NCBI RefSeq assembly: GCF_023973165.1
Contig: NZ_CP099547.1
Coordinates: forward strand, 1,736,001-1,800,000
Direction: 5' to 3'
Length of the DNA stretch: 64,000 nucleotides
Source of the DNA: Arcanobacterium pinnipediorum
Lineage (GTDB): Bacteria > Actinomycetota > Actinomycetes > Actinomycetales > Actinomycetaceae
Under the pieces are notes generated by a model that was given only the letters and a program-made list of their open reading frames with translations, made no database searches and was not told the origin of the DNA. Positions 5,450 through 39,360 of this stretch are shown piece by piece. A program made the translations under genes and the position numbers. Within the stretch, counting starts at the first letter, position 1, and each line of letters begins with the position of its first letter.

Positions 5450-6301
5450 TTACTGCTTTCCTGCAGCCTTCTTCAAGATTTCTGGCACAACCTCATCGGG
5501 GTTACCCTTGGTCCAAGAATCGTCTGCTTGACCATCGACGGTCAGGGTAGGTGTACCAGTGAAACCGTTGTCTCGGAAAGTGCCAACGGTCTTGGCAACG
5601 ACATCTTGCCACTTCGAATCAAGGATTGAAGCCGGCAGATCATTGACCACATCATCTGCAACACCAACGCTCTTGGCGATGTCAGCGATATCGGCGGCCG
5701 TCGGGACTGCTGGCACGGTTTGATCGTGGATCTTCTTTCCGTGTTCCATCATTGCGGTATTGAAGTCCCAGACCTTTTCTGGAGCATACTGCGCAAGATA
5801 GTAGAACGCTGTGGCACCCTTGGTTGAAAAATCAGTGCCGAGCGTATTGACCAAATGCAACGATACTTGAATATCGCCGTTTGTAGCGTGGTCCTTCATT
5901 AACGGAACATACTTAGCGTCAAAAACTTCACATGCTGGGCACATAAAATCAGACCACAGCCCAACAACTGACTTGCCGGATTCTTCGGAGGTTGCAACCT
6001 GGTTTTCATCAAACAACACTCCACCGTCTGCTGCAACGTTATCGGTTAGAACTTCGCGAGATGAGCCCGTGTAAGACCCGAGCTGTTTAGCATCTCCGCG
6101 ATCAGAAGAAATAATCTGCCACACAGCAAACACGACAAGAAGGAGAGCAACTGCACCCACGGCGATCATAATTACTTTCCGGCGTTGAGCTTGCTTAGCT
6201 TCAAGCTCTTTGAGCATCCGAGCTTTCTCGCGCGCAGCTTGGCGTCGTTCTTCTTTCGTCATCCGCTCTTGGGAAAGACCAGGAGTGTTCTTGGAAGCCA
6301 T
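5450..6301 (-). CDS. membrane-anchored DsbA-family thiol-disulfide protein
   Basis: A 283-residue protein. The N-terminus is charged and helix-forming (KEERRQAAREKARMLKELEAKQ), followed by one transmembrane segment (VIMIAVGAVALLLVVFAVW, about residues 43-61). An extracytoplasmic thioredoxin-like domain follows, with the redox motif CPAC in VGLWSDFMCPACEVFDAKY (about residues 116-134) and the cis-proline region GFTGTPTLTVDG. This architecture is common in actinobacterial exported oxidoreductases that form or isomerise disulfides. Upstream on the same strand, 80 bp away, is the protein kinase. A clear terminator follows. Confidence 0.88.
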   Translation of the reverse strand: MASKNTPGLSQERMTKEERRQAAREKARMLKELEAKQAQRRKVIMIAVGAVALLLVVFAVWQIISSDRGDAKQLGSYTGSSREVLTDNVAADGGVLFDENQVATSEESGKSVVGLWSDFMCPACEVFDAKYVPLMKDHATNGDIQVSLHLVNTLGTDFSTKGATAFYYLAQYAPEKVWDFNTAMMEHGKKIHDQTVPAVPTAADIADIAKSVGVADDVVNDLPASILDSKWQDVVAKTVGTFRDNGFTGTPTLTVDGQADDSWTKGNPDEVVPEILKKAAGKQ

Positions 6302-33266: not shown

Positions 33267-33300
33267 TTGCCTTCAATATACCCCTAGGGGTATATTGAAG
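33267..33300 (+). promoter_or_regulatory. promoter with 30-bp palindromic CstR/CsoR-type operator
   Basis: Positions 33271-33300 form a perfect 30-bp palindrome centred on ATACCCCTAGGGGTAT, the form of operator bound by CsoR/CstR-family repressors. A TTGCCT -35 (33267-33272) and a TATATT -10 (33291-33296) with an 18-bp spacer overlap it, so repressor binding would cover the promoter. A CstR-type repressor gene lies at the end of the same cluster, giving likely autoregulation. Binding is inference. Confidence 0.75.
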
Positions 33301-33342
33301 CTATCGTAGCTAAATCGAACATATAACACCAAGGAGAATATA

Positions 33343-33513
33343 ATGTGCTATCCAGTTACCTGCAAAAATTGTGGCAAAACAACATGGGGCGGTTGCGGCC
33401 AGCATGTTGCTTCGGTAAAAGCTAAGGTACCTGCTGGGCAGTGGTGCACCTGCACCGAAGAAGAAAAAGCTCAAGCAAAAGGCGGCGGATTCTTCCGCTC
33501 TCTATTTAGCTAG
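33343..33513 (+). CDS. small cysteine-rich protein, 56 residues, first gene of the CstR-type locus
   Basis: ATG preceded by CAAGGAGAATATA, an excellent ribosome site. The protein begins MCYPVTCKNCGKTTWGGCGQ and contains WCTCTEEEK. Cysteines are at residues 2, 7, 10, 18, 35 and 37, suggesting a zinc-ribbon-like or thiol-active small protein. It ends with a glycine/phenylalanine-rich tail. Similar MCYPxxC small proteins occur beside sulfur-metabolism genes, but I know no assigned function. It is the first gene after the operator, so it probably takes part in persulfide or metal handling. Confidence 0.8.
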   Translation: MCYPVTCKNCGKTTWGGCGQHVASVKAKVPAGQWCTCTEEEKAQAKGGGFFRSLFS

Positions 33514-33697
33514 GAATCGGTATCCGTCTAGCCTCACGTGCAAAAGGCAGTCAGCCTCACGTACGAAATCCACCCCAGCTCACGATCGAAATCTCCCAGC
33601 TCGGGTGAAAACATCACCAGCTGAAACCTCAAACTGGACTTGGCTGCGCACAACACTTAGCCCTTAACCCCACTCACAACAAAATACAAGGAATCAC

Positions 33698-35320
33698 ATG
33701 ACCACTACGGTAATTATTGGCGGTGTAGCTGGTGGAATGTCCACCGCAACACGACTTCGTCGTAATGATGAACAGATGGAGATAATCGTTTTAGAATCTT
33801 CAGGATACGTCTCATTCGCGAACTGCGGACTACCCTATTTTATCGGCGGAGAAATTACCGAAAGGTCGAACTTACTCCTGCAAACACCACAGTCACTCAA
33901 AGCGCGATTCAATCTCGACGTACGAACCAACACCACAGCCACCGAGATTAACCGCGCAGCGAAAACTGTTGCAGTTACGAGTCCAGAAGGTAACTACGAG
34001 ATCGCCTACGATTATCTCGTGTTATCCCCAGGAGCTCGCCCACTTACTCCCCCGATTCCTGGCATCGACAAGGCGCTGACTTTGCGCACAGTAGAAGATA
34101 CCGATCGTATCGTCGCTGCTATCTCGCACACCACTGTGGAGCGTGCAGTTATCATCGGTGGCGGTTTTATCGGACTGGAATTGGCAGAAAACCTTGCCAA
34201 GCGTTCAATCAGCGTCACCGTAGTGGAGCAAGCTCCACACATTATGGCTCCCCTCGATGCTGAGATGGCGGCAATCGTCACTAAGCACTTGGAAGAAAAT
34301 GGCATCACTATTTTGGCCAACACCCAAGTCACAGCAATTGAAGATGGATACGTAGTAGCCGGCGATCAGCATCTACCTGCAGATACCGTTATCGCCGCAC
34401 TCGGGGTAGAACCAGCCACTGATCTTGCACGCACTGCAGGGATAGAACTCAACGAACGTGGTGGTATCGTCGTCGATGCCCGCCAACAAACCTCCGATCC
34501 AGCAATCTTCGCTCTCGGTGACGCAGCACAGAAAACTGATGCCATCTCTGGAGAAGGAACCATGGTCCCGCTCGCCCAAACCGCAAACCGCCATGGGCGC
34601 CTTGTGGCCGATATTATTACCGGACGCGCCACCAACGCCCAACCTGTTCTGGGCACCGCCATTATCGGACTCTTTGGTTTAGCGATCGCCACAACCGGAT
34701 GGAATGAACGTCGCGCACGTAGCGCAGGGAAAAATGTTCGGGTTATTCACACCCATCCCGTCAATCATGCCGGATACTATCCGGGCGCAACTGGTTTGAA
34801 CCTCAAACTTATAGTCGATGCCGACGACGACTCCATCCTCGGCGCACAAGCAATAGGATATGACGGCGTCGACAAGCGCATTGACGTGATTGCCACAGCT
34901 ATGCGCGCACATGTGAAAGCCGCAGACCTAGCCGATCTTGAATTAGCTTATGCTCCGCAATTCGGCTCGGCAAAAGACCCAATCAATATGCTTGGATTTA
35001 TCGATGACAACGCACTAGCAGGTGAAAAAACTTTCCAGTGGCACGAACTCCAATCAGCACTAGACGAAGGTTGGACGCTCGTTGATGTGCGCACACCACA
35101 AGAATATGATCGCGGAAATATCCCTGGAGCTATCAACATCCCAGTCGATGAACTCCGCCAACGTCTTACCGAGCTGAAGGATAAAAAGGTCCTCGTCCAT
35201 TGCCAAGTCGGACTGCGTGGCCATGTCGCATGCACCTTGCTGTCGAACAACGCCATCGAATGCGCAAACCTCGACGGCGGATATACGACGTGGAAGTTTG
35301 GCCAGACCACCCGCGTCTAA
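33698..35320 (+). CDS. CoA-disulfide reductase fused to a C-terminal rhodanese domain
   Basis: 540 residues. The FAD-binding start TVIIGGVAGGMSTATRLRR is followed by the active-site Cys43 in SFANCGLPYF, as in CoA-disulfide reductases. An NAD(P)H-binding fold (AVIIGGGFIGLELAENLAK) and dimerisation domain come next. A rhodanese domain occupies about residues 445-535, with Cys502 in VLVHCQVGLRG. CoADR-rhodanese fusions reduce CoA disulfide/persulfide or polysulfide and move sulfane sulfur, linked to sulfide detoxification in cst-type operons. The ATG follows AAGGAATCAC. Confidence 0.92.
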   Translation: MTTTVIIGGVAGGMSTATRLRRNDEQMEIIVLESSGYVSFANCGLPYFIGGEITERSNLLLQTPQSLKARFNLDVRTNTTATEINRAAKTVAVTSPEGNYEIAYDYLVLSPGARPLTPPIPGIDKALTLRTVEDTDRIVAAISHTTVERAVIIGGGFIGLELAENLAKRSISVTVVEQAPHIMAPLDAEMAAIVTKHLEENGITILANTQVTAIEDGYVVAGDQHLPADTVIAALGVEPATDLARTAGIELNERGGIVVDARQQTSDPAIFALGDAAQKTDAISGEGTMVPLAQTANRHGRLVADIITGRATNAQPVLGTAIIGLFGLAIATTGWNERRARSAGKNVRVIHTHPVNHAGYYPGATGLNLKLIVDADDDSILGAQAIGYDGVDKRIDVIATAMRAHVKAADLADLELAYAPQFGSAKDPINMLGFIDDNALAGEKTFQWHELQSALDEGWTLVDVRTPQEYDRGNIPGAINIPVDELRQRLTELKDKKVLVHCQVGLRGHVACTLLSNNAIECANLDGGYTTWKFGQTTRV

Positions 35321-35372
35321 CCGCACTACGCACCTGTCACATCTGCCCATCTCTTCCAAAGGAATACCACTC

Positions 35373-35627
35373 ATGCATCTACCGGCACAGGACGTCAAAC
35401 CCGCCATTACGCGACTAAAACGCGCCCGCGGACAACTCGATGCAGTCATCGCCGCCCTAGAAAGTGAACAAGACTGCCACGAAATCATTCCGCAGCTAGC
35501 AGCCGTTGCTAAAGCAATTGACCGGGCCGGATACCTGGTTATCTCTACCGGAATGAAAAAGTGTTATACCGATGGGCACGATATCGAAGAAGAACATCTG
35601 GAAAAAATGTTTCTCTCCCTCGCCTAG
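35373..35627 (+). CDS. CsoR/CstR-family repressor, CstR-like
   Basis: 84 residues, all-helical CsoR family (ITRLKRARGQLDAVIAAL). Cys35 and Cys64 are 29 residues apart, the spacing of the reactive pair in CstR and of two copper ligands in CsoR. The copper-ligand His expected four residues before the second Cys is Gly60 here (STGMKKC), so Cu(I) sensing is unlikely and a thiol/persulfide switch is favoured. AAAGGA precedes the ATG. It lies 52 bp after the reductase gene, whose substrates fit that signal. The cstR symbol is withheld because the family assignment needs a phylogeny. Confidence 0.88.
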   Translation: MHLPAQDVKPAITRLKRARGQLDAVIAALESEQDCHEIIPQLAAVAKAIDRAGYLVISTGMKKCYTDGHDIEEEHLEKMFLSLA

Positions 35628-35718: not shown

Positions 35719-35752
35719 AGGCGGGCTGGTACGTTTAAGTACCAGCCCGCCT
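35719..35752. terminator. bidirectional terminator between the CstR locus and the NCS1 permease
   Basis: Perfect 14-bp arms AGGCGGGCTGGTAC and GTACCAGCCCGCCT with a six-base loop. It lies between two convergent genes. The T-runs are weak on both sides. Confidence 0.75.
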
Positions 35753-37473: not shown

Positions 37474-39360
37474 ATGAACCAGAAAAATTCGGTAGACGCC
37501 GTGCCAAAGGCGCCCAAGCTTGTTCTTTTGTCCCTCCAACATCTTCTTGCGTTCTATGCTGGCGCAGTCATTGTTCCACTGCTGATCGCCTCGTCACTAC
37601 ACTTAGATTCTGCGACGACGATCCATCTCATTAACGCTGACCTGTTCACCTGCGGTTTAGCTACGTTGATTCAAAGCGTAGGTGTGACGAATAAAGTCGG
37701 TGTTCGCTTGCCGATCATTCAAGGCGTCACAACAACTGCGGTTGCCCCGATTATCGCCATCGGCTTGGCGGCCACGGACGGCGCAGGCGGTGAGGCATCA
37801 CTACCCGTCATTTACGGTTCGATTATCGTTGCTGGCTTGTTTACATTCTTTGCCGCACCGTTCTTTGCCAAGCTTCTTCGTTTCTTCCCCCATCACGTCA
37901 CCGGTACGGTTTTATTAGTGATGGGAACCTCTTTGTTAGCGGTTTCAGCTAACGACTTCGTCAACTACGCTGACGGCGTTCCAGCGGTTCGCGATCTAGC
38001 CTATGGCTTTGGCACGCTGCTCGCCATCGTTTTAGTCCAGCGATTCTTCCGCGGATTTTTGGGAACAATTTCGGTATTGATTGGATTGATCGGCGGCACC
38101 ACAATCGCTCTTGTTATGGACCATATTCAACCAGAAAAGCTCGAAGCAATCACGAACTCTCCAGCACTAGGTGTCACGACGCCGTTCTATTTCGGATGGC
38201 CAGTATTTTCGTTCACCGCTATTATTTCGATGATTATCGTCATGTTGATTACGATGGTGGAAACTACCGGTGACGTTTTTGCTACCGGTGAGATTGTTGG
38301 TAAGCGCATTACTTCTGCCGACGTGGCTGCCGCGATTCGTGCTGACGGTGCATCAACAACCTTAGGTGGTATTCTCAATTCCTTCCCATACACCATGTTT
38401 GCTCAAAACGTCGGGTTGGTGCGACTAACTGGTATCAAATCGCGATGGGTTGCTGCCGGCGCTGGCGTGTTGATGATCATCGTTGGCTTACTGCCAAAGG
38501 TGGGAGCGCTCGTTGCCTCAATCCCTTCTCCGGTGCTCGGAGGCGCTTCGCTGGCGTTGTTCGCTAACGTGGCGTGGGTTGGTTTGCAAACGATTGCGAA
38601 ATCCGATCTGGGTGACTTCCGTATCGCAGCGATCGTGACGACGTCGTTGGGCTTGGCGATGCTCGTAACTTTCCGTCCCGAAGTTGCTCAAGTATTCCCA
38701 CAGTGGGCACAGGTCTTTTTCTCTTCCGGAATGTCAATCGGTTCAATTACCGCTATCTTGCTAAATCTGGTGTTCTTCCACATGCCATTTTCAGCGAAGC
38801 GTTCTGAACAACATATCGCCTCCGGTGTCAGCCTTGTGGACGTCAACGCAATGGATCAGCAATCCTTTGTATCAACATTGCGTCCGCTCTTTAATTCAGA
38901 AATCTGGCCACTTGAGAACGCCTGGCAGACTCGTCCGTTCGACTCCGTGACCCAACTTCGTGATGCGCTACTTGTAGGGGTGGTTCAAGCTGATGCAGCG
39001 CAACGTATGTCACTAGTATCTTCCTATCCAGATATGTATGAGATCGTAACCGCACCCGACAACGATGAAAACACTCAGGTCATTGGTTCGTTTGCCTTGG
39101 GCACTGCGAGCCAAGCGCAGCTAACAGAACTCAAGGAACTGTGTGATAGCTATCGGGCGAAGTTCGGTATTCCGTATGTGGCATTTTTGACTACGGATGC
39201 ATCTATGGAAGGAATCTTAGATGATGCCCGCCGCAGATTAGCTCACGCTCCCGAAGTTGAACATATTGTTGCGGTGACACAAGTGGTTGATATTGCAGAC
39301 GACCGCCTCGGTATTCTGATCCGTGGCGCCAATCAGCGAGCTCACGAATATCAAGGCTAA
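37474..39360 (+). CDS. NCS2 purine permease fused to an OHCU-decarboxylase-like domain
   Basis: 628 residues. Residues 1-450 are an NCS2 xanthine/urate-type permease (LLSLQHLLAFYAGAVIVPLL; FPYTMFAQNVGLVRLTGIKS). From about residue 455 a cytosolic domain resembles OHCU decarboxylase: FVSTLRPLFNSEIWPLENAW, RPFDSVTQLRDAL, SYRAKFGIPYV. In that family this enzyme acts after uricase in urate breakdown. The catalytic His of the HPDL motif is replaced by Tyr518 (SYPDM) and the SxxEQ glutamate motif is lost. It therefore probably does not decarboxylate and may be a regulatory or binding module. A strong terminator follows. Confidence 0.9.
   Translation: MNQKNSVDAVPKAPKLVLLSLQHLLAFYAGAVIVPLLIASSLHLDSATTIHLINADLFTCGLATLIQSVGVTNKVGVRLPIIQGVTTTAVAPIIAIGLAATDGAGGEASLPVIYGSIIVAGLFTFFAAPFFAKLLRFFPHHVTGTVLLVMGTSLLAVSANDFVNYADGVPAVRDLAYGFGTLLAIVLVQRFFRGFLGTISVLIGLIGGTTIALVMDHIQPEKLEAITNSPALGVTTPFYFGWPVFSFTAIISMIIVMLITMVETTGDVFATGEIVGKRITSADVAAAIRADGASTTLGGILNSFPYTMFAQNVGLVRLTGIKSRWVAAGAGVLMIIVGLLPKVGALVASIPSPVLGGASLALFANVAWVGLQTIAKSDLGDFRIAAIVTTSLGLAMLVTFRPEVAQVFPQWAQVFFSSGMSIGSITAILLNLVFFHMPFSAKRSEQHIASGVSLVDVNAMDQQSFVSTLRPLFNSEIWPLENAWQTRPFDSVTQLRDALLVGVVQADAAQRMSLVSSYPDMYEIVTAPDNDENTQVIGSFALGTASQAQLTELKELCDSYRAKFGIPYVAFLTTDASMEGILDDARRRLAHAPEVEHIVAVTQVVDIADDRLGILIRGANQRAHEYQG

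Follow-up and report, generated by a model that had tools for sequence, protein, structure and literature searches.

The principal finding at this locus is an unnamed family of small Cys/His-rich proteins with an operator-level link to persulfide sensing. In Arcanobacterium pinnipediorum the family is represented by a 56-residue protein, the first gene of a three-gene locus that also codes for a CoADR-rhodanese fusion and a CsoR-family repressor, within the 64-kb stretch of DNA analysed here (the window). The promoter-operator, the gene order, the type of repressor and the small gene's association with the operator across actinobacteria are established at the level of sequence comparison, and genomic context makes it very likely that the small protein belongs to the persulfide-repressor regulon.

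Rhodaneses, dioxygenases and CoA-persulfide reductases are known targets of persulfide-sensing repressors. If the reading given below is correct, then among the most consistent actinobacterial targets of such repressors is an unnamed protein of ~40–65 residues that also occurs in flowering plants, and for whose family neither Pfam nor NCBIfam holds a model. Reactive-sulfur handling would gain a directly testable step, and a plant protein family its first functional hint.

Layout of the locus and its operator

The features of the locus are as follows.

33267–33296, forward strand: putative sigma-70-type promoter with -35 TTGCCT (33267–33272), an 18-bp spacer and -10 TATATT (33291–33296), matching the consensus at 9 of 12 positions
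33271–33300, no strand assigned: perfect 30-bp palindromic operator spanning the spacer and the -10, with the conserved core ATACCCCTAGGGGTAT at 33278–33293
33343–33513, forward strand: unnamed Cys/His mini-protein of 56 residues, with C2, C7, C10, C18, H21, C35 and C37
33698–35320, forward strand: CoADR-rhodanese fusion of 540 residues, of the CoA-persulfide-reductase type, with Cys43 and Cys502
35373–35627, forward strand: CsoR-family (PF02583) repressor of 84 residues, Cys-x-Cys clade, with Cys35, Gly60 and Cys64
35719–35752, no strand assigned: perfect 14-bp inverted repeat between the repressor gene and a convergent permease gene, a probable terminator

A preliminary description of this DNA had reported a perfect 30-bp palindrome at the promoter and a six-cysteine protein of 56 residues as the first gene, and both observations hold. 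The palindrome is the sole zero-spacer perfect palindrome with arms of at least 9 in the 64-kb window, and in 50 mononucleotide shuffles the longest arms were 10 (6 palindromes), next to 7 palindromes of arm length 9. Comparison with other loci reveals that the general part of the operator is only the 16-bp core, ATACCCC-N2-GGGGTAT. Across 80 listed sites the outer pairs match beyond the core at a mean of 2.9 of 9 positions, against ~2.25 by chance, and long palindromy is restricted to Arcanobacterium lineages plus a handful of loci elsewhere. The core ATACCCCTAGGGGTAT matches the published site ATACCn6GGTAT, which places it with the ScCsoR type. It occurs once in the window’s own genome, where the six other listed sites all carry three mismatches and a reversed-pattern control gives two sites; a small regulon served by a single operator fits this, in line with the minimal regulon proposed in the preliminary description. 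Among 49 distinct sites upstream of small genes, the right operator edge carries TAnnnT, a possible -10, in 36, and TTG stands at a fitting -35 distance in only 16.

Several further observations concern the layout. One operator elsewhere (L155, at -62 relative to its small gene, which lies at 5979) extends to a 34-bp palindrome that is perfect apart from the context of the two middle bases, with 9 of 9 outer pairs matching, independently of the Arcanobacterium case. The small gene and the CoADR gene lie 184 bp apart in the window (33514–33697) and roughly 10–50 bp apart in four Arcanobacterium relatives (L001, L050, L053, L054); the spacer in the window contains degenerate 23-nt repeats, which do not make up a genome-wide element. 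Elsewhere in the window, at 37474–39360, an OHCU decarboxylase domain is fused to a xanthine/uracil-type permease.

The repressor and the CoADR-rhodanese

The repressor falls within the CsoR/DUF156 family, scoring 65.1 bits against PF02583 (curated Pfam cut-off 22.8), and no other gene of the family was found in the 1.95-Mb genome. Its only cysteines are Cys35 and Cys64, and Gly60 stands where the copper-binding His would be, just as had been read beforehand. The Cys-His-Cys (CHC) copper ligands that mark copper CsoR are absent from this protein, and two Cys without the copper His are what characterizes CstR. Across 46 Actinomycetaceae genomes, 51 CsoR-family matches form two score groups: all 26 above 90 bits read CHC, and 24 of the 25 below 90 bits could be read, all as CxC, the remaining one being a partial gene that was left out. 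A check of 30 loci in the class sample gave 29 CHC repressors, all above 90 bits, and one CAC below. Repressor type was assigned to whole genomes by Pfam score at this 90-bit boundary, the residues of the other low scorers in the class sample being read only where they lie inside retrieved loci; in two loci (L012 and L057) the repressor beside the small gene is unreadable at the ligand positions.

In a tree of 96 rows, from which identical rows and those below 50 bits had been removed beforehand, a split at 99/97 separates 65 CxC rows and the window repressor from the CHC rows and four PDB fragments, and the CHC rows themselves come together in a single group at 95/93. One Firmicute CstR fragment is placed across the 99/97 split with the CHC rows and the other PDB fragments, on few columns, with an open fork and a long branch; long branches and few columns make the tree positions of the PDB fragments unsure in general. 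Because of its ligand residues and its separation from the CHC rows, the repressor is judged not to be of the copper type; the preliminary description would have counted clustering with copper CsoR proteins against its reading, and no such clustering was seen. That description had called it CstR-type; the label suits the residues, two Cys and no copper His, and finds no clear support in descent, the protein falling in an actinobacterial clade. It is named CstR-like or ScCsoR-type here rather than CstR, and its best described relative by operator and regulon is ScCsoR of Streptomyces coelicolor.

The enzyme combines an FAD/NAD reductase with a C-terminal rhodanese, as seen in its Pfam domains, and carries both active cysteines expected of a CoA-persulfide reductase (CoAPR); the domains and residues bear out the fusion with Cys43 and Cys502 that had been described earlier. 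Its cysteines are at 43, 502, 512 and 522, and the nearest entries in the PDB are the CoA-disulfide reductase 3icr and the CoA-persulfide reductase 8a56. Against the NCBIfam model TIGR03385 (CoADR) it scores 437.2 bits, under the curated cut-off of 578.8.

The small-protein family and its regulon

The window small protein has no match in Pfam, NCBIfam, PADLOC or the PDB, and a search of 17 family members against Pfam returned a weak match to DUF5651 for one member (E 0.007) and nothing else. Its closest named relatives belong to Arcanobacterium, with 85% for A. haemolyticum and 89% for A. phocae. All 149 listed bacterial proteins keep the candidate ligands C2, C7, C10, C18, H21 and C35, as do 96 of the 97 locus sequences. 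A seventh follows in varying form: CxC in 25, CxxH in 60 and CxxxH in 64 of the listed proteins, and CxC in 37, CxxH in 28, CxxxH in 16 and CxH in 2 of the locus sequences, the pattern failing in 14 short ones that, as printed, have CxC within the last few residues. Since Cys and His replace each other at this position, a metal ligand is more likely than a sulfur shuttle, and the protein probably contains a metal site. The predicted model (mean pLDDT 78.7, pTM 0.47) consists of a strand, a CxxC turn, a second strand and a helix that begins around C18 and H21; a fold search with this model gave no significant structural match.

The ends of the protein are more variable. A loose hydrophobic tail pattern is found in 141 of the 149 listed bacterial proteins and in only 53 of the 97 locus copies, with 29 showing other ends and 15 copies, of at most 42 residues, having no tail. 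Because of this count in the locus copies, the estimate for membrane association was lowered from an even chance to something we consider possible and somewhat doubtful. A short form of 37–42 residues stops just past the last cysteines (e.g., L127, L138, L141, L142, L148), and several short-form genes sit alone behind an operator. The proteins begin with Met-Cys in 147 of the 149 listed bacterial and 36 of the 39 plant-search proteins. Removal of the Met would leave an N-terminal Cys, which could serve as a ligand or, in plants, as an oxygen-dependent degron.

Homologs were gathered by the small protein alone and their neighborhoods were inspected afterwards. Sulfur genes were recognized with profiles for CsoR-type, rhodanese, CoADR, persulfide dioxygenase and TauE that were built from the ORFs of the studied loci themselves, and operators were counted at up to one mismatch within 300 bp of the small gene. 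Among 42 loci on named contigs, 37 have sulfur genes, 18 an operator, 40 either and 2 neither. The class sample comprises 45 loci of 4–12 kb, one genome per genus, hand-picked from the 101 of 246 genomes that were positive, usually for the genus's strongest match and with the window’s own genus left out; sulfur genes are present at 23, an operator at 23, either at 37, the operator alone at 14 and neither at 8. Three of these eight genomes do carry a CxC-type repressor. The association with sulfur genes elsewhere, which the preliminary description had named as a check, is thus found in both sets. The 20 control loci (242,719 bp), hand-placed in 20 of the 45 class genomes, retrieved beforehand and searched in the same set as the loci, contain no sulfur-gene match and no operator at up to two mismatches, with one site at three. 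Of 30 family loci, a set biased in that it consists of top scorers, 24 have an operator.

The link follows the type of repressor. In the 46 Actinomycetaceae genomes, a small gene lies within 3 kb of 16 of the 25 CxC repressors versus none of the 26 CHC repressors, and 21 of the 24 genomes that have a CxC repressor contain it versus 5 of 22 without (p 1.6e-5); the CHC type has no link to the small gene in these genomes (12/20 versus 14/26, p 0.77). The 26 copper-type CsoR loci (92,883 bp) contain no operator at up to two mismatches. Related loci are not independent, so that all p-values given here are guides. For the class loci, Fisher tests rest on hand-assembled counts: at the 22 loci without nearby sulfur genes an operator is present in 14 of 17 with a CxC repressor in the genome and in 0 of 5 without (p 0.002), and in all 45 genomes in 22 of 38 with one and 1 of 7 without (p 0.047).

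Individual neighborhoods give a varied picture. On pRHL3 of R. jostii RHA1 the small gene is annotated amid an MBL-fold hydrolase, thioredoxin, rhodanese, a metal-sensitive regulator and TauE, and on a Microbacterium plasmid an annotated regulator adjoins it; the stretch examined around the small gene on a Paenarthrobacter plasmid contains no such sulfur or regulator genes. Dioxygenase, TauE and rhodanese genes beside relatives, together with the CoADR-rhodanese here, make up a recognizable sulfane-sulfur regulon. At two loci (L148, 6043–6335; L145, 393–592) two divergent small-gene copies face away from each other with an operator between them.

Searches detected the small gene in 98 of 151 family genomes, 101 of 246 class genomes and 15 of 149 phylum genomes, totals that each include the window’s own genome. 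Of ten genomes with the gene examined outside the class, two show the link: one carries a pair of small genes together with CoADR, rhodanese, CsoR and a perfect operator, and in the other the small gene stands beside dioxygenase, TauE and CsoR. It is missing in the other eight, which indicates that the small protein also acts outside the regulon. A profile search matched 2,896 proteins at E ≤0.001, 120 of them among the matches listed. A plant search, with a probe modeled on plant proteins, gave 39 proteins, and the 32 with an organism name are all from flowering plants; a profile from the bacterial alignment (A1) alone recovers all 39 at E ≤1.5e-6, calculated for the full database size. All 39 have CxC as the seventh ligand and 38 keep the first three Cys. 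A CaaX box forms the end of 26, in 21 cases as CxxL.

A broader reading is that actinobacteria and flowering plants share one unnamed family, a Met-Cys-starting, seven-ligand zinc-thiolate mini-domain, often membrane-tethered, that acts on reactive sulfur or else, by way of the N-terminal Cys, on the redox or oxygen state. The tether would be the hydrophobic tail in many bacteria and a CaaX lipid anchor in many plants. We regard this as speculative and unlikely; if true, actinomycetes have put the family under a persulfide repressor, and the plant version is an untouched reactive-sulfur or redox factor.

Proposed mechanism, alternatives and known systems

On balance, the locus is probably a self-regulated sulfane-sulfur (persulfide) detoxification operon with a zinc-thiolate mini-protein. 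The reduced repressor would occupy the operator over the -10, persulfide would modify Cys35 together with Cys64 to release it, and the three genes would then be expressed. The CoADR-rhodanese may reduce CoA persulfide to CoA and H2S, like its Enterococcus faecalis relative. The small protein, very probably a member of the regulon and often the sole gene behind the operator, is predicted to form a strand-strand-helix module for a metal, probably zinc, bound by C7, C10, C18 and H21 with C2, C35 and C37 or His, and to carry a hydrophobic tail in many species. Such a module might buffer sulfane sulfur or shield a target while the enzymes clear the sulfur; this is the most likely role for the protein, and it is put forward tentatively.

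The preliminary description had suggested a component such as a sulfane-sulfur carrier. In that reading a Cys of the small protein would take sulfur from small persulfides and pass it to Cys502 of the rhodanese. Its six Cys among 56 residues and the co-regulation and adjacency of its gene with the rhodanese and CoADR genes would suit that role. However, alternation between Cys (25) and His (124) at the seventh position of the 149 listed proteins, the C7/C10/C18/H21 spacing and predicted model, which resemble a metal module, and the many standalone copies without a rhodanese in the examined stretch all argue against it, and the carrier now appears rather unlikely. The same Cys/His richness could also signal a metallothionein-like copper or zinc buffer under a copper CsoR, and a similar operator type is used by copper CsoR/RicR in the part of the literature consulted (PMC7533328). 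The window’s sole CsoR-family gene lacks the His ligand, though, none of the 26 CHC genes has the small gene within 3 kb, and no such operator lies near them, which makes this buffer highly improbable.

A different kind of role is that of an adaptor whose Cys/His module and tail, under persulfide stress, dock an enzyme (either the CoADR-rhodanese or some membrane sulfide enzyme) to the membrane or a partner. Many members have a short conserved tail behind a linker whose length varies, and this and the CaaX ends of 26 of the 39 plant-search proteins are in keeping with such a role; yet the tail is missing in 15 of 97 locus copies, and no partner family recurs beside the standalone copies, where any one family is shared by at most 2 of 17 loci, and we consider an adaptor quite improbable.

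The unnamed plant proteins share the Cys/His core with the bacterial family and differ in that their seventh ligand is always Cys, in their frequent CaaX ends and in having no operon context. Copper CsoR of M. tuberculosis (PDB 2hh7) has the Pfam family and two conserved Cys in common with the window repressor; unlike the latter it has Cys-His-Cys in place of the arrangement with Gly60, belongs to a separate clade and is found away from the small gene. In E. faecalis, CoAPR reduces CoA persulfide and is controlled by CstR (PMC9405070). That system resembles the present one in its two-Cys repressor without the copper His and in its enzyme, with C42 and C508 versus Cys43 and Cys502 here; the repressor clade differs as far as the fragments resolve, and a small Cys/His protein is not mentioned in the part of the description available (PMC9405070). 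The available part of the ScCsoR description likewise makes no mention of such a protein, and the enzyme there is a dioxygenase whereas here it is a CoADR-rhodanese (PMC7533328). The likeness to ScCsoR (SCO0620) is drawn from the published operator and regulon, as described in the part consulted: polysulfide releases the repressor, for which both Cys are needed, and the 16-bp site ATACCn6GGTAT controls a dioxygenase, TauE and rhodanese that clear sulfane sulfur (PMC7533328). A two-Cys CsoR-family repressor, the 16-bp type of site and a sulfane-sulfur regulon are thus common to that circuit and the locus described here (PMC7533328).
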